DNA of 64,000 nucleotides from Gimesia sp. (GTDB lineage: Bacteria; Planctomycetota; Planctomycetia; Planctomycetales; Planctomycetaceae), in NCBI GenBank assembly GCA_002706765.1, contig PAJV01000061.1, positions 1-64,000 on the forward strand, in the 5' to 3' direction. The position numbers and the translations under genes are program-made. Shown here in pieces: positions 1 through 6,784 of the stretch. A model generated the notes under the pieces. It worked only from the letters and a program-made list of their open reading frames with translations. It ran no database searches and was not told the origin of the DNA. The first letter of the stretch is position 1; the number at the start of each line of letters is the position of its first letter.

Positions 1-108
1 ATTCAACTTCTGATTCAACTTCTGATTCAACTTCTGATTCAACTTCTGATTCAACTTCTGATTCAACTTCTGATTCAACTTCTGATTCAGTTTCTGCCTC
101 AGTTTCTG
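1..108. repeat. 12-bp tandem repeat encoding the NusA C-terminal EVES tail
   Basis: Seven exact copies of the 12-base unit attcaacttctg fill 1-84. Two diverged copies follow (attcagtttctg, cctcagtttctg) to about 108. The unit is a whole number of codons and on the minus strand encodes Glu-Val-Glu-Ser, so it extends nusA in frame. The array starts at or before the first base, so its true copy number is unknown. Perfect identity beside degenerate edge copies suggests recent expansion by replication slippage. Confidence 0.95.
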
Positions 109-1381
109 CCTCTACAACATCGGGTTCCGGTTGCACTTCTGCTCCCGCCTGAGGTTGATCTGTGGCCTGAGGAGCCGCAGCTGCCGGATTTTTCTGAGCG
201 ATTCGCATTGCTTCTTCTTCTGCTTCAACGCGTTCACTCTCCCGGTCTGCCACTTCGACAATCTGCTCGCACTGTGCGGCTGTCAGGCCTCCCAGTTCAG
301 CCAGCTGATCCGGCTCAATCACAGACAGGTCGTAGTAACTGAAGAAGCCCTGGGAAACCAGACTTTCTGCCAGTTCTTCTGACACGCCAGGAATGGAAGA
401 GAATGCTTCCACAGTTTTATCCAATTGCTCGTCCAGTTCCGTTTGTGTCATGACTTCAATATCCCAGCCAACCAGCTTGGAAGCCAGACGCACATTCTGT
501 CCCTTTCGACCAATTGCCAGAGGCAACTGATCATCTCGAACCAGCACAATCACGCGACCCAGCATGGGGCATAGAATGACATCTTCCACTTCAGCCGGCT
601 GAAGTGAATTCGGCACCAGCACCTGCAGTGAGTCGTTCCAGCGAACGATATCAATCCGCTCACCGGCCAGTTCATCCACAATATTTTTAATTCGGGCCCC
701 CCGCATTCCCACACAGGCACCGACACAGTCGATACTGCTGTCGATACAGGACACAGCGACCTTGGAGCGATAACCGGCTTCCCGCGCCAGAGAACGGACA
801 TCAATGATCCGGTCGGCCACTTCCGGTATTTCCAGTTCAAATAAACGACGCACCATATCCGGATGAGTTCGTGAGAGAATCACCTTGACCCGGCTGCCCG
901 CTTTGCGAACATCCAGAACAACCGCACGCACCCGATCCCCGACGCGAAATGACTCGCCTGGAATCTGTTCGCCGCGGGGCAGAATCCCTTCAATTTTGCC
1001 CAGGTTAATCAGTACCGCGCCACCTTCAACACGGGAAACGGTTCCCGATACCGACTGGTACTGCATCTCCATATATTCATCGAAGACCGTGTCGCGCTCT
1101 GCTTCCCGGATTTTTTGAATCATGACCTGCTTGGCTGTCTGTGCCGCCACACGTCCCAGAATTTCACCTAGAATGTCTTTGCCCAGTTTATCGCCATCAC
1201 AAAGAACGGTCGGCTCGCCTGTATCGCGATCAATGTCTACAGAAAGCTCATGATCATCTCCAAAGTGCCGACGCGCAGCCGACAGGATGGCCTGTTCAAT
1301 TCCACCAAACACGATCTCTTTATCGATACTTTTATCGCGTTGAATGGCATCAACAATCCGGAGAACTTCCTTACCGTCCAT
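1..1381 (-). CDS. nusA: Transcription termination/antitermination factor NusA (3' end cut by window)
   Basis: NusA binds RNA polymerase and nascent RNA and modulates pausing, termination and antitermination. From the N-terminus the protein has the NusA polymerase-binding domain (starts [20 protein letters not shown]), an S1 domain (around [22 protein letters not shown]), two KH domains ([19 protein letters not shown] and [20 protein letters not shown]), then a helix-hairpin-helix segment ([17 protein letters not shown]). It ends in an acidic Glu/Val/Ser tail that runs off the window edge, so the stop codon is not seen. The ATG at 1381 is preceded by a GAAGGAAA ribosome site. No rimP-like gene lies immediately upstream, unlike in many bacteria. 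The probable structured RNA or leader at 1509-1808 lies about 130 bases upstream on the same strand. The NusA identity is secure. Confidence 0.95.
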
Positions 1382-1507
1382 AATTGTGTTTCCTTCATTC
1401 GACAGTTGAGATATTCAACTGACTCGAAAACTACTCAAACTAGACCTGAACTGGTCAAATCTATTGATACACCGCCGGGAATGATGCCCCTGCGATACCG
1501 CTATTAA

Positions 1508-1547
1508 CAAAAAAAAGCGGGTACATGCCCACTTTATGACTACCCGT
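1508..1547 (-). terminator. Intrinsic terminator of the structured RNA / nusA leader
   Basis: Read on the minus strand, ACGGGTA and TACCCGC form a GC-rich stem (1541-1547 with 1517-1523) followed directly by eight T residues (complement of the A-run 1509-1516). This is a classic Rho-independent signal. It lies 128 bases before the nusA start and no protein gene precedes it on that strand, so it either ends a small RNA or acts as an attenuator in the nusA leader. Confidence 0.8.
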
Positions 1548-1808
1548 ACCACCGCAAAACGGAAGTCAGGCGTAGCCGCGATTGGCATTTTTCAATACAA
1601 CAAACGCGACAATCGGATTGGTGAGCCAAAGCTCGTGTTCCAACCAGCCTACATAATTGAGGACTCCATTCGAGTTTACGAATGCCGATTCATCACAAAG
1701 AAACAAACAGCCCGAACGGCATGTCACCCCTTGCAAGCACAATGCGTACTGAACACCAGTACGCAGAACAATTGCGCATAAAGCACCACTACAATGAATG
1801 CTTCACTA
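1509..1808 (-). ncRNA. Probable structured non-coding RNA, unassigned family
   Basis: This protein-free stretch of about 300 bases has a whole transcription unit on the minus strand: promoter-like hexamers upstream, several perfect or near-perfect helices, and a terminator with a T8 tail. Helices (window coordinates) are 1743-1751 with 1757-1765 (9 bp, 5-base loop); 1667-1672 with 1679-1684 (6 bp, 6-base loop); 1616-1621 with 1640-1645, enclosing 1623-1626 with 1631-1634 (GAGC/GCTC, 4-base loop); and 1579-1584 with 1610-1615. I could not match it to tmRNA, RNase P RNA, SRP RNA or 6S RNA by their conserved blocks. Alternatives are a long nusA leader with an attenuator, or a dispersed planctomycete repeat. 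A 58-codon frame inside it (1566-1742) has only a TTG start. Confidence 0.6.
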
Positions 1809-1815
1809 ACAAATG

Positions 1816-1844
1816 AAATTAATCTTCGCGCGTTCAGATGTCAA
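1816..1844 (-). promoter_or_regulatory. Candidate sigma-70 promoter of the structured RNA
   Basis: On the minus strand there is an exact -35 TTGACA (complement of 1839-1844), a 17-base spacer and a weak -10 TAATTT (complement of 1816-1821). This predicts a start near 1808. The -10 matches the consensus at only three positions, so the call rests on the perfect -35, the spacing, and the structured region and terminator downstream. Confidence 0.4.
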
Positions 1845-2231
1845 GCACCGCAGGCAACTATTTCATAACGACTTAACTTCACCGGGTGCGGACTGCCAAA
1901 ACAGCTCTTCGCACAGACAATCCGTACAGTAGCGAGGCGATAAACCCGGAAACTTCCTGAAAACCCCGGGAAGACCGAATTCAGCACTTTCTTCACGATG
2001 AGTGCAGATTGATCTCCATCGAAACACGAAACTTCTATACTATCATACGCAGAGCCCTGAAATTGGCGACCCCTGTTTCTCCAGAAAGCGGCGCCCGTTC
2101 CAAGCTCATTTATCGCAGTTTAGCGGACAGACTGATCAAGAAATCGGTTCCGCTGCAGCTGTCTGAGTTATGTTAAACCTGCTCGAAAGAGCCCCCTTTT
2201 CTACCCTCAAATTTTGAAGGACAACCCTGCA
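1845..2231. other. Non-coding gap before the TPR gene
   Basis: I find no convincing gene, repeat or terminator in this stretch between the leftward RNA promoter and the rightward TPR gene. It should hold the promoter of the TPR gene, but no hexamer pair stands out. Confidence 0.5.
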
Positions 2232-3653
2232 ATGCCTCGCATTTTGCCACTGTTGGTTCTCTGCCTTGGAATCCCGCTCACCGTATCTGCACAACCACCC
2301 GCTACAACAAACGATCCTTATGCCCAGCAGAAGATTCAGGCTGACCAGGCACAGCAGCAGGGGGACTACGCGAAATCGATCGCACTCACGTCCCAGGTCC
2401 TGCAGCAGAAGCCCGACGATCACGTAGCCTATTACCTGCGAGCCAGCGCCCGCGTTGAAGCAGGACGCGAGCAGGGCAATGTCCAGTCCATCCGCGAAGG
2501 GGTCAGTGATGCCCGCGAGGCAATCCGCTTCAGCGAGAACCAGAACGCCAACTATTACCTGCCCTACCTGTATGGGATGATGAATCTGGCGGTAATGGAG
2601 AACAAAAAAAGCCACGCAGAGACTGCCCTGGGTGTCGCCAACCAGGTTCTGGCCCGCCCGGGACTGACACCGGAGGAAAAAGCCAACTTCCATTACCAGC
2701 GTGGCATGATTTATCTGCCCCTAAACAAGCCACAGGAGGCAGCACAGGACTTCACGGAAACCATCAAACTGTCTCCCGATCACTTCGCAGCGCTGCTCGC
2801 CCTGCCTGATGCCTACGCCCTGGCCGGCAACAATGAAATGGCTCTCGCCAGCTTCAACCAGGTGATACAGAAACAGCCGGACTCTCCCGTCGTCTACAAC
2901 AATCGGGCCATGTATTACCAGCAACAGGGAAAACTCCAGGAAGCCATCAATGACTTTTCCCGGGCAATCCAGATCAACCCGAAATATCATCACGCGATCA
3001 CCAACCGCGGCTTTGCCTACCTGGAAGGCGGTAAACCGGACACTGCAGAAGCTGACCTGACACAATCGCTGTCGATTGAACCCAACCAGCCATTTGTTCT
3101 GGGAATGCGCGGAGAGGCAAGACTCCTGCAGGGCAAAATCACTGAAGCGATCCAGGATCAGAAAAAAGCGGTTCAGATGGATCCGCAAAACCCGGCCCTG
3201 CACTCCGACCTGGGCTTCTCATATTTCTTTAACAAAGACTACGCGGAGGCTTTGTCTGAATTTAAGCTGGCTGCACAACTGGCACCCGAACAGATGAAAG
3301 TTCTCGATCCCTGGGTCTACCTGGCAATGCTTCAGACCAACCAGAAATCTGCCGCAGATGCCAAATTCCAGTCTGTCATCGCTAAAAAACCGGATGCGCG
3401 CGACTCCGTTGATAACCTGCTTTTATTCTTGATGGGAAACATCTCGAACACGGAATTGCTCGATTCAATCGACCAGAAAGACGTGGAACGCGCGAAAGCT
3501 CAAATCTGTGAAGCCTATTTCTTCATCGGGCAGAAATCACTTCTGGCTGGTGACAGCGCAACTGCTGCCCAGAATTTCCAGGCCTCATTGAATACCAATA
3601 TGAAAGGCCTGTCCGCTTATCGTGGCTCTCAGTATGCCATGCAGAAATTTTAG
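2232..3653 (+). CDS. Secreted tetratricopeptide-repeat protein
   Basis: This 473-residue exported protein is built almost entirely of TPR units. The N-terminus (MPRILPLLVLCLGIPLTVSA, then Gln) is a typical signal peptide. Repeats of about 34 residues follow from residue 30 onward, recognisable by segments such as YNNRAMYYQQQGKLQEAIND and FHYQRGMIYLPLNKPQEAAQ. I place the start at the ATG at 2232, preceded by GAAGGA. An in-frame upstream TTG at 2214 would put a charged segment before the signal peptide and is less likely. TPR arrays form protein-binding scaffolds; the partner cannot be told from the sequence. The gene is a single unit ending before a bidirectional terminator. Confidence 0.85.
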   Translation: MPRILPLLVLCLGIPLTVSAQPPATTNDPYAQQKIQADQAQQQGDYAKSIALTSQVLQQKPDDHVAYYLRASARVEAGREQGNVQSIREGVSDAREAIRFSENQNANYYLPYLYGMMNLAVMENKKSHAETALGVANQVLARPGLTPEEKANFHYQRGMIYLPLNKPQEAAQDFTETIKLSPDHFAALLALPDAYALAGNNEMALASFNQVIQKQPDSPVVYNNRAMYYQQQGKLQEAINDFSRAIQINPKYHHAITNRGFAYLEGGKPDTAEADLTQSLSIEPNQPFVLGMRGEARLLQGKITEAIQDQKKAVQMDPQNPALHSDLGFSYFFNKDYAEALSEFKLAAQLAPEQMKVLDPWVYLAMLQTNQKSAADAKFQSVIAKKPDARDSVDNLLLFLMGNISNTELLDSIDQKDVERAKAQICEAYFFIGQKSLLAGDSATAAQNFQASLNTNMKGLSAYRGSQYAMQKF

Positions 3654-3769
3654 ACCGTGTCCAGCTTTACTTCAGCGGCTTCAAGTCCATCCATACCGTG
3701 TTGGATAGACTGAGAGACGCGAAGATCAAACCTGGTGCAATCCAGTTCTGAAGAACCTGTAAACAATCA

Positions 3770-3810
3770 AAGCCTCGCAAGGAGCATTGATCCTTGCGAG
3801 GCTTATTTAT
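3770..3810. terminator. Bidirectional intrinsic terminator
   Basis: AAGCCTCGCAAGGA (3770-3783) pairs perfectly with TCCTTGCGAGGCTT (3791-3804) across a 7-base loop. T-rich sequence (atttatttt) follows on the plus strand. It separates the convergent TPR gene and ketosynthase-like gene and can serve both. Confidence 0.85.
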
Positions 3811-3829
3811 TTTCGCGAAGCGGGATTAC

Positions 3830-5131
3830 TCAGACACCACAGATTACAGAGGCACTGGCCTGGCCAAAGGTGGTTGTGCTGATCTTCAAAAACAGCTTGT
3901 TATCAGTAGCCAGAGGCTCGTTGCGAACCACGTTTAAGGGGCAATCCGGATCAACGTTTTCATAATTCAGGGTCGCAGGAATCACACCCTGTTTCAATCC
4001 TACCAGGGATCCACTCGCTTCCACGATTCCGCAGGCGGATCCAGAATTACCAAAGTAACTTTTAAGTGCAGTCACAGGTATTTCACTGGCTTTGTCCCCA
4101 AAAATATCCTGAATGGCAAGATATTCCTGAACATCGATTTCCTGCTCGCCTAAGCCATGGGCATTGATATGGCCGATATCTCCCACTTCCACATCAGCTC
4201 TTTTCAATGCCAGCTTAATGGCATTGGAGATCGCGGTTTTCGTATCCACTGATCCATCGCGTTTCACAACGCATGAAGCCCCGGTTCCCAGCACTTCACC
4301 CCAGATCTTTGCGCCCCGCTGCTCAGCGTGAGTTTTTTCTTCCAGCAACAGCGAACAGGCGGCTTCTCCCAGAACCTGCCCGGTGCGGGCTTTGTCAAAG
4401 GGACGCGAACGCTTTTCAAATTCTGCAGGGGAATCTGCCAGCTGATCCCAGAATTTCGCATGAATGGATTTGACTTCATGCACGCGGGTCCCGGTCACGC
4501 CGGCAATCATGACGTCAGCCCAGCCCCGTTCAATCACACGCTGCGCTTCGCCCAGCACCAGATTTCCGGATGCTTCCGCGTGGGTAATCGAGTTACTCGG
4601 TCCCCGGGCGTCAAAAATAATTCCTATGTGGCAGGCAGGCATATTGGGCAGATATTTTAGCAACCATAGCGGTTCCATTTTGGCCAGACCATCATTGCCC
4701 CACCGCTGGAATTGAAACTCAGTGCCTTCCGACGCAGCCATACAAGCCCCAAAGAGGACAGTGGGGGGGCTCAACATCAGGTTGGCTCCGAACTCGATGC
4801 CGAAGCGTTCGCTGTCCAGGTTCTCCAGATCCAGTGCAGCGTCATTCAAAGCCAGATTGGCGGAAGCGACCCCCATCTGGATTTCACGGCACATCACTTT
4901 CAGACTTCTGCGCTGCTGCTTCAGGTATTCTTTTTTGATGGTGGAGTCATTGAAGTCAGAAATTTCCGCAACGCAGGTATCAGGAGCTGCCAGATGTGAA
5001 TAGAGTTCGGATTTTTTGACTCCTGATTTCCCGGTCATCAGGCTATCTTGAAATGCTTGCACTCCGATTCCGATCGGGCTGAGAATCCCCATCCCGGTAA
5101 TCAGAATTCGCCGCTTTGATTCTGTATTCAT
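3830..5131 (-). CDS. FabF-like ketosynthase homologue with Glu in place of the catalytic Cys
   Basis: This 433-residue protein has the complete thiolase-like ketosynthase layout (starts with RRILITGMGILSPIGIG) but an altered active site. Aligning its GPSNSITHAEASGNLVLGEA with FabF GPNSAVATACASATNAIGDA puts Glu186 where the nucleophilic Cys should be. The first catalytic His is kept (His325, INAHG) and the Lys is kept (Lys357). The second His of the KGHLGH motif is Asn362 (KSYFGN). It therefore cannot form the usual acyl-thioester and should not condense on its own. Known Cys-less relatives are chain-length factors and KSQ decarboxylase domains, which carry Gln. It lies downstream of fabF on the same strand after 408 bases. 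A decarboxylase, a FabF partner subunit or a different activity are all possible. Confidence 0.9.
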   Translation of the reverse strand: MNTESKRRILITGMGILSPIGIGVQAFQDSLMTGKSGVKKSELYSHLAAPDTCVAEISDFNDSTIKKEYLKQQRRSLKVMCREIQMGVASANLALNDAALDLENLDSERFGIEFGANLMLSPPTVLFGACMAASEGTEFQFQRWGNDGLAKMEPLWLLKYLPNMPACHIGIIFDARGPSNSITHAEASGNLVLGEAQRVIERGWADVMIAGVTGTRVHEVKSIHAKFWDQLADSPAEFEKRSRPFDKARTGQVLGEAACSLLLEEKTHAEQRGAKIWGEVLGTGASCVVKRDGSVDTKTAISNAIKLALKRADVEVGDIGHINAHGLGEQEIDVQEYLAIQDIFGDKASEIPVTALKSYFGNSGSACGIVEASGSLVGLKQGVIPATLNYENVDPDCPLNVVRNEPLATDNKLFLKISTTTFGQASASVICGV

Positions 5132-5539
5132 TTGAATCTCTTATGAAAGTCCCGCTTATCAACTACGCCAGCCGCACTTGAAGAATGTATCTTCATCGTA
5201 GAACAATATTCTTCCCAGACAAGAGCTTTGCCTGCTTCAATCGGAAAAACTGCAGACGCAGCTCACCATGCTCAGAAAAGAAGAATTCGAGGGATCGCGA
5301 TAACCGAACTACCTGCTGCCTGAACCCAAAACACTGGCAACACACAGACATTTATACACCACCCAGACCCGATAAAGCAGCTGTAACAAGGGATAGCTAA
5401 GACAATCAGGCCTCGATTTTCAACCCTGAAGCAACAATCAGATCAGGAATTATTCGGGAAAACTCTAACCCCTTACAGGTAATCCCGAAAACCAGGCAGA
5501 CCACGAGCCAATAACCCGGAAAGGACAGCGTCAGGCGCC
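5132..5539. other. Gap between fabF and the ketosynthase-like gene
   Basis: No gene is seen. A short inverted repeat TTCGGGA/TCCCGAA lies near 5453-5492 without a T-run, so it is not a clear terminator. The length of the gap suggests the ketosynthase-like gene has its own promoter here, but I cannot point to one. Confidence 0.4.
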
Positions 5540-5550
5540 TTAAGGCGCCT
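5533..5550. repeat. 18-bp perfect palindrome across the fabF stop codon
   Basis: AGGCGCCTTAAGGCGCCT is an exact palindrome centred on the TAA stop of fabF. In RNA it would fold as a 7-bp GC-rich hairpin with a TTAA loop. No T-run follows on either strand, so it is not a standard intrinsic terminator. It may protect the transcript 3' end or slow ribosomes and polymerase at the stop codon. Confidence 0.8.
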
Positions 5551-6784
5551 TCTGCAGAATCAGACAGGCATTGTGCCCGCCAAACCCGAAACTGTTCTTC
5601 ATTACCCTGTTCAGCTTCATCTCACGGGGTTCATTGGGAATGTAATCGAGATTACATTGCTCGTCTGGATTATCGAGATTGATCGTCGGCGGTGCCACCT
5701 GTTCCTGCAACGCTTTGACACCAACAACGAACTCGACACCACCGGATGCCCCCAGCAGATGCCCCAGATGCCCTTTTGTACTGGAGACAGGCATCTGTTT
5801 CACATGGGAATTGAATACCGTATTGATGGCAGCAGTCTCGGCGACATCTCCCAGAGGAGTACTTGTGCCATGCGTATTGATATAGTCAATATCCTGTGGA
5901 TTGAGACCGGCGTCTTTGATCGCATGCAGCATGGCACGGGCAGCCCCCCGTCCCTCAGGATCAGGAGCCGTCATATGAGTTCCATCTGCAGACATACCAT
6001 AACCGATCACTTCTGCAAGAATCGGAACTCCCCGTTTTTTCGCATGCTCGTACTCTTCGAGTACAATTATGCCGGCCCCTTCAGCCATGACAAATCCATC
6101 CCGATCACGGTCGAAAGGACGACTGGCTGACTGAGGATCATCATTGCGAGTGGAGAGGGCATTCATACGGGCAAAGCCAGACAGACCCATCGGAGTCACT
6201 GCGGCCTCGCTTCCGCCAGTAATCATAATGTCCGCAACATCATGCTGGATCAGCTTGAAGGCATCCCCGATCGCATTCGTTGCCGAAGCACAGGCAGTTG
6301 CCACTGCGCTGTTCGGTCCTTTTAACTCGTAAGTCACCGAAATGTTCCCGCTGGCGGCATTGACCATCAGCTTGGGAATCATGAAGGGAGAAACACGTGC
6401 TGGCCCCTGGTTATACAGCCGATCGTGCTGGCTCTCGATTTCATTCAGACCGCCGATCCCACTGCCGACCAGAACTCCTCTGCGATAGGGATCACCGTCA
6501 AAATCTTCGAGTTGCGCCTGGCGATAGGCAATATGAGCGCCGACCAGACCGAATTGCACAAACCGGTCGACACGCTTCAGATCTTTTGCTGAGATGTTCG
6601 TATATTCGCTGGCGTTGAAATCCTTGATCTCACCACCAAAACGAACTTTGTAGTCTGAACAGTCAAAGCGTTCCAGCGGACCAATACCACTTTTACCAGC
6701 GCATAACTTGTCCCAGAACTCTGAGACATCTAAACCCAGAGCCGTTACAACAGATACTCCGGTAACGACAACTCTCCTGCGCAT
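5540..6784 (-). CDS. fabF: 3-oxoacyl-ACP synthase II (FabF)
   Basis: FabF condenses malonyl-ACP with acyl-ACP in fatty-acid elongation in the cytoplasm. The 414-residue length is normal. The full catalytic triad is visible: Cys165 in VATACASATNAIGDA, His305 in INTHGTSTPLGD and His342 in SSTKGHLGHLLGASGG. The C-terminal Gly-rich strand NSFGFGGHNACL is intact. The ATG start has a clear AGGAAG ribosome site nine bases upstream. It follows acpP on the same strand with an 83-base gap, an arrangement widely shared in bacteria. It contrasts with the Cys-less paralogue downstream and is presumably the working condensing enzyme. Confidence 0.96.
   Translation of the reverse strand: MRRRVVVTGVSVVTALGLDVSEFWDKLCAGKSGIGPLERFDCSDYKVRFGGEIKDFNASEYTNISAKDLKRVDRFVQFGLVGAHIAYRQAQLEDFDGDPYRRGVLVGSGIGGLNEIESQHDRLYNQGPARVSPFMIPKLMVNAASGNISVTYELKGPNSAVATACASATNAIGDAFKLIQHDVADIMITGGSEAAVTPMGLSGFARMNALSTRNDDPQSASRPFDRDRDGFVMAEGAGIIVLEEYEHAKKRGVPILAEVIGYGMSADGTHMTAPDPEGRGAARAMLHAIKDAGLNPQDIDYINTHGTSTPLGDVAETAAINTVFNSHVKQMPVSSTKGHLGHLLGASGGVEFVVGVKALQEQVAPPTINLDNPDEQCNLDYIPNEPREMKLNRVMKNSFGFGGHNACLILQKAP

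Follow-up and report, generated by a model that had tools for sequence, protein, structure and literature searches.

What is transcribed from the DNA immediately upstream of nusA in this Gimesia genome, and does the product stand alone or belong to nusA? The window analyzed here (the whole stretch of 64,000 nucleotides) opens inside nusA, which occupies positions 2–1381 of the minus strand, is incomplete at the window and contig start, and was assigned from its translation and from Pfam matches to NusA_N, S1 and KH. The C-terminal end of nusA (window 1–110, minus strand) is made up of near-identical 12-base repeats (SEVE repeated), and it is perhaps because of this repeat that the contig of this genome starts there. 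For the region upstream of nusA a preliminary description had proposed a promoter, a structured RNA and a terminator, and had offered two interpretations: a new planctomycete RNA family, or a nusA leader with an attenuator.

The predicted promoter, structured RNA and T8 terminator were confirmed at the positions originally given, all on the minus strand. An exact TTGACA (1839–1844), near-invariant across 17 same-genus sequences, is followed after a 17-base spacer by TAATTT (1816–1821), and from this candidate −10 element we place the 5′ end of a leader RNA of ~300 nt (1509–1809). The RNA would end at a predicted intrinsic terminator of the GGG...CCC type (1509–1535), with a hairpin at 1535–1514, the stem of which is invariant in the 17 sequences, and a T8 run to 1509. 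Its predicted fold beats those of 100/100 dinucleotide shuffles (z −3.2). The RNA also contains a feature absent from the preliminary description, an AUG followed directly by UAG (1649–1654; ATG 1654–1652, TAG 1651–1649), which is invariant in the 17 same-genus sequences and lies 9 nt behind a Shine-Dalgarno (SD)-like GGAG (1664–1667). An equally invariant hairpin, CATTCG/CGAATG (1667–1684), abuts this GGAG on its 5′ side; being identical in the 17 sequences, it is uninformative as to covariation. The distal leader (1382–1508), which extends as far as nusA, holds blocks conserved in the same-genus comparison; those at 1382–1460 come with a potential hairpin (CAGTTGA...TCAACTG) immediately 5′ of the nusA ribosome-binding site.

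Scans of window positions 1–6000 returned 3 promoter-like sites versus 4.5 expected and 7 terminator-like sites versus 6.1 expected, which is chance level, and the promoter at 1844–1816 was unlisted by the promoter scan, TAATTT failing its consensus. As such single-sequence scans perform at chance, the case for the unit rests on comparison. The statement that no gene of 60 codons or more fits here was literally false, as an 81-codon frame is found on the plus strand at 1536–1781; however, one-base gaps (e.g., alignment columns 129, 219, 227, and 264) shift this frame in relatives and for this reason we do not accept it as a gene. The plus strand still has stop-free stretches of 58–100 codons, and rejection of the gene reading rests on the gaps.

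The earlier failure to recognize tmRNA, RNase P, SRP or 6S RNA in the element was borne out by Rfam searches. At gathering level there was no match for the window, for 8 relatives or for 20 further leaders of the family, and for the window region two weak, unrelated matches were the only ones up to E 10, with none to those four families or to the rimP-leader model that Rfam includes. That the element might be a divergent member of one of these housekeeping families is exceedingly improbable: whole-genome covariance-model searches placed RNase P and tmRNA elsewhere in the window's genome, and likewise a 6S candidate on C16, itself just below the cut-off (43.2 versus 46.4 bits). The point in favor of this identification is that that genome gave no match to either bacterial SRP RNA model, small or large, in a search in which only part of the candidates were scored.

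Within the genus the element is well conserved. In a blastn comparison of 59 genomes it was matched in 18, comprising all 17 genomes from the same genus, counting that of the window itself, and a single one of the 42 genomes outside the genus (G018), in which the weak match was confined to 34 bases of the terminator. In the 17 same-genus sequences the −35/−10 block and the terminator are nearly invariant, and the DNA from the promoter to the divergent TPR gene is poorly conserved. Upstream of the −35 element, some 35 bases (window 1845–1885, minus strand; AAGTCGTT.TGAAATAGTTGCCTGCGGTGC) are strongly conserved in the same sequences, which exceeds the needs of a promoter, and there is perhaps an activator site here.

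The preliminary description had proposed looking for covariation across relatives, the lack of which was to count against the unit, and some was found. RNAalifold gave a structure of 85 pairs for the 17 sequences, of which 8, located in helices 1, 6, 11, and 13, carry double changes, these counts being made on a structure derived from the same alignment. The best supported of all helices is the 5′ hairpin (1778–1806), with 4/10 pairs double-changed. The 9-bp hairpin that had been singled out (1743–1765) is real and is kept in most same-genus sequences, with 9 pairs (wobble allowed) in 5/17, 8 pairs in 10/17, and a deletion in the other two (L014 and L015). Across the alignment 99.1% of cells pair, and the covariation score was reached by 0/500 shuffles; there is no excess of further pair types, as 479/500 shuffles match that number. 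Judged against shuffles and slid partners, the leader fold is supported overall on four of five measures, the further pair types being the one that fails. The helices around the start-stop never vary in the genus and so are silent on covariation. A Box C/D or kink-turn arrangement picked out by eye (GUGAUGA...CUGA) was rejected, as the alignment of the genus does not retain its CUGA.

The terminator match in G018 led us to compare the DNA upstream of nusA throughout the family. Of 61 sampled genomes, 58 provided this DNA, those left out being G022 (nusA not found) and G087 and G098 (nusA truncated where a contig ends); two further genomes of the family, G100 and G107, are not in the counts. 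A script scoring hairpins next to T-runs found a match in 56/58 genomes (none in G064 and G082), versus an average of 29 in shuffled DNA, and at a score of at least 7 a hairpin and T-run were present in 53/58, whereas 20 shuffles averaged 2.5 and never exceeded 5. Most of the 56 terminators are of one type, with GGG...CCC or CCG in 52 and a 5′ arm of AG[TC]GGG in 45. A promoter-like TTGACN-(15–19)-TNNNNT lies 190–400 nt ahead of the terminator in 46/56, a count made without a shuffle control. For comparisons between genera we used one genome per genus (52 genera; five second members and G064 were left out, and the terminator of G082 was set by hand). TTGAC[AT] occurs no more than 420 nt from the terminator in 45 of these genera, in one of which (G068) it is too close to serve, and in many other genera TATCGT or similar serves as a candidate −10 element at about the same spacing. 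Between genera the leaders appeared to have diverged too far for alignment; their folds have a mean z of −2.1 against mononucleotide shuffles, with 26/52 below −2, which is moderate.

What follows the terminator bears on whether the RNA is an independent gene. The distance from T-run to nusA ranges from 19 to 399 nt across the family, and in 15/56 genomes (14/51 genera) the T-run ends no more than 32 nt from the nusA ATG. This leaves no room for a second promoter, so nusA in these genomes should need readthrough. In the window's genome the distance is 127 nt and a second promoter is possible. This spacing, the full promoter-to-terminator layout and the conserved, structured nature of the RNA would all suit a free-standing small RNA gene acting in trans, with nusA served by its own downstream promoter. 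We consider such a gene unlikely nonetheless, given the genomes in which nusA appears to be reached by readthrough, and because the unit stays beside nusA over some 50 genera despite divergence beyond the reach of blastn. In G014, a same-genus genome in a single contig, the gene order is nusA, infB, rbfA (Pfam IF-2, IF2_N, and RBFA); operon order was checked in this genome, and nusA was the only gene looked at in the others. From its sequence context the most fitting interpretation of the element is a 5′ leader belonging to nusA-infB-rbfA. Of the two interpretations offered at the outset, each holds in part and the overall verdict is one of support. A new RNA family is consistent with the lack of an Rfam match, the conservation and the partial covariation, but the nusA leader is the better fit, since the series of promoter, RNA, terminator and nusA recurs in the family; the attenuation itself is predicted from this arrangement.

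Reading the leaders side by side showed that the start-stop ORF (AUG followed by UAG, UAA or UGA) is present in 39/52 genera. All 39 are within 250 nt of the terminator, versus a shuffle mean of 6.4 and a maximum of 17, and the reverse strand has a start-stop in 1/52. In the zone 80–200 nt before the terminator, which was chosen after the leaders were seen, and against shuffles that treat genera as independent when related leaders are not, the counts are 39/52 for a start-stop (shuffle mean 3.06, maximum 8), 30/52 for a start-stop with an SD 4-mer (mean 0.42) and 45/52 for an SD with an ORF of up to 5 codons (mean 1.97). In a control stretch further upstream the corresponding counts were 0/48, 0/48, and 1/48. 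No other SD-start-stop in the 64-kb window is followed by a T-run at about 150 nt; one at 4982 has a T-run 30 nt on and lies inside a long frame of the other strand (3830–5131).

Several properties suggest that ribosomes use this AUG. An SD 4-mer precedes 30 of the 39 start-stops, compared with the 4.5 that other windows in these leaders would predict, and three of the nine start-stops that have none possess an in-frame upstream AUG behind an SD. Some of the 39 ORFs may be longer, starting at an AUG upstream in the same frame; that of the window would then read MESSIM, with no clear SD ahead of this AUG. All three stop codons are used (TAG 15, TAA 14, TGA 10), and the stop type changed at least eight times in a NusA tree of 30 rows, 22 of them labelled, which is itself poorly resolved, with 6/27 inner branches well supported. 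In the remaining 13 genera the SD is followed by an ORF of 2 (five genera), 3 (four), 4 (two), 5 (one), or 9 codons (one); these ORFs were chosen by hand from a listing, with that of G036 counted as 3 codons. The invariance in the genus of the entire core around AUGUAR is what would be expected of a binding site, and we weighed whether AUGUAR might serve the structure of the RNA or bind a protein, without being read by ribosomes. We think this very unlikely in view of the SD enrichment, the use of all three stops, and the tiny in-frame ORFs where an immediate stop is absent. In 33 of the 39, the predicted openness of the start-stop hexamer exceeds the average for the leader. Across genera, single-sequence folds around the start-stop differ too much for a shared one to be named.

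The position of the ORF relative to the terminator is nearly fixed (median 114 nt, quartiles 106–123, range 85–194, n = 39), unlike its distance from the approximate transcription start, which is not kept (58–221, n = 33). Comparison thus reveals a conserved candidate unit with its predicted terminator, and a putative start-stop ORF with an SD at a near-constant distance from that terminator. A fixed ORF-terminator distance, together with a variable distance from the T-run to nusA, points to the terminator and not to nusA translation as the target. This bears on the proposition that the mini-ORF merely parks ribosomes, thereby protecting the leader from nucleases or helping a nearby start. Precedents exist in the two-codon minigene of the axe-txe leader, which acts in cis and for which mRNA protection and translation coupling were proposed, and in that of the LEE1 leader, cited in the same paper (PMC8708949; in the part of the text available). 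We judge ribosome parking unlikely here, given the terminator at a near-fixed distance from the ORF and the varying position of the nusA start.

As the best explanation, and one that we hold to be rather probable, we propose that the leader with its start-stop ORF tunes readthrough into nusA-infB. Transcription would begin near 1809 and pass through the structured leader with its one-codon SD-AUG-stop ORF, after which the polymerase would either stop at the terminator (1535–1509) or continue into nusA. A ribosome would initiate on the AUG and terminate immediately at the stop codon, and its occupancy would reflect how well the cell is supplied with initiation-competent ribosomes (IF2, fMet-tRNA), and perhaps also with release or recycling factors. 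Occupancy would alter folding of the nascent leader or the length of RNA polymerase pauses, and with these the frequency of termination; NusA itself may add feedback by promoting termination, as proposed for rimP-leaders. A ribosome on the AUG would be ~140 nt behind a polymerase at the T-run, and any contact would, therefore, need looping or a change of fold. No conserved antiterminator was found: in 1/51 leaders the pairing with the 5′ arm of the terminator exceeded that of 95% of mononucleotide shuffles. A more specific proposal, which we offer tentatively and which may well prove wrong, is that the one-codon ORF is a dedicated sensor of translation-initiation capacity that would set NusA and IF2 output together through its occupancy as polymerase nears the terminator, coupling transcription elongation to initiation with no peptide being read.

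The leader-attenuator part of this explanation follows from the anatomy of the element together with published work on the rimP-leader and on Streptococcus agalactiae, for which a terminated short form of the nusA-infB operon leader was reported (in the part of that report available). In both, NusA feedback on termination is a proposed theme for the nusA-infB operon, and for the rimP-leader it is the mechanism its authors favored (Naville and Gautheret, 2010, PMC2965389; from the available portion). The rimP-leader resembles the element in having a terminator with a GGG...CCC stem and T-run in the leader of a nusA/infB operon, and an antiterminator is visible in neither, as far as the available portion of that paper goes (PMC2965389). 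The element is of the same terminator type and its operon carries nusA and infB (in G014), but there is no Rfam match and nusA, not rimP, is the first gene; RimP_N, from the ribosome maturation factor RimP, was found in 0/21 planctomycete genomes (G000, the genome of the window, and 20 relatives) by a model that was positive in 10/14 control genomes. A further difference from the rimP-leader as described there is that the leader here is long and carries a conserved start-stop ORF. In Escherichia coli, metY-rimP-nusA-infB likewise has a non-coding RNA gene and terminators ahead of the nusA-infB operon, and as that RNA is the initiator tRNA, initiation would be a shared theme (PMC6511841; available text). 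The RNA here is not a tRNA, and the 64-kb window yielded no tRNA gene.

Ribosome profiling of E. coli has reportedly dealt with start-stop sites (Meydan and colleagues, in 2019). Bacteria are known to have start-stop sites and two-codon minigenes (PMC11955535 and PMC8708949, in their available parts), and the element resembles them in having an AUG-stop with an SD (in the window, and in 39/52 genera, 30 of the 39 with an SD), for which ribosome occupancy would be predicted. Ribo-seq of Campylobacter jejuni gave 18 start-stops, which are putative, internal and out of frame (PMC11955535, available part). Like the element, these start-stops and minigenes are ORFs of one to a few codons, that of axe-txe being in a leader with translation signals, but the minigenes were proposed to act on mRNA stability or translation (PMC8708949, same portion). 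Unlike the element, neither the minigenes nor the C. jejuni start-stops have a tie to an intrinsic terminator or a family-wide conservation stated in the available portions of these papers. A minimal AUG-stop ORF in a 5′ leader also regulates Arabidopsis NIP5;1 via ribosome stalling, although this eukaryotic system is boron-dependent and works by mRNA decay (as described in the available text). A trp-type attenuator is a poor analog, as there is no regulatory codon run (39/52 ORFs have no codon after the AUG, and those of the other 13 genera have 1–4 further codons, in one case 8, with no run and no shared codon), and there is no competing antiterminator in the leaders by the pairing count given above.

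The element appears to be mainly a family trait, judging by the upstream regions of other families. There were 51 genomes of the class outside the family, for which 44 upstream regions were examined (G117 had no nusA match and six were not fetched). G127 has a promoter and an ATG TAG with the T-run 79 nt past the ATG; G044 has a similar terminator whose T-run follows an ATG TGA at 160 nt, with an unclear promoter; and in G111 an ATG TAA and T-run fall in the apparent end of a coding sequence. Among the 44 regions only G127, and perhaps G044, fit, and no fitting arrangement was seen in the rest. In another family of the class, many leaders (e.g., L105, L107, and L109) have a palindromic TTGACAG...CTGTCAA promoter-like site, without a T-run of at least 6.

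Each ingredient has precedents in the sources above, as far as their available parts extend: bacterial start-stop sites and two-codon minigenes on the one hand, nusA-infB attenuators on the other. The combination of a start-stop ORF with a nusA-infB attenuator, kept across a family, did not appear among the literature matches listed (3 to 15 of up to 2,583), which cover the literature partially and included no paper on this leader or on a conserved start-stop attenuator. Leader ORFs are usually viewed as acting through the encoded peptide or its codons. A family-wide leader ORF that mostly has no codon past the start would instead sense initiation and termination themselves, and its location on the operon for NusA and IF2 would offer a direct handle on how the two machineries, for transcription and for translation, are kept in balance. 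Elements of this kind can be missed when annotation or a search for small ORFs applies a length cut-off, and in this family a tiny "gene" may be a ribosome-operated switch for the machinery of both transcription and translation.
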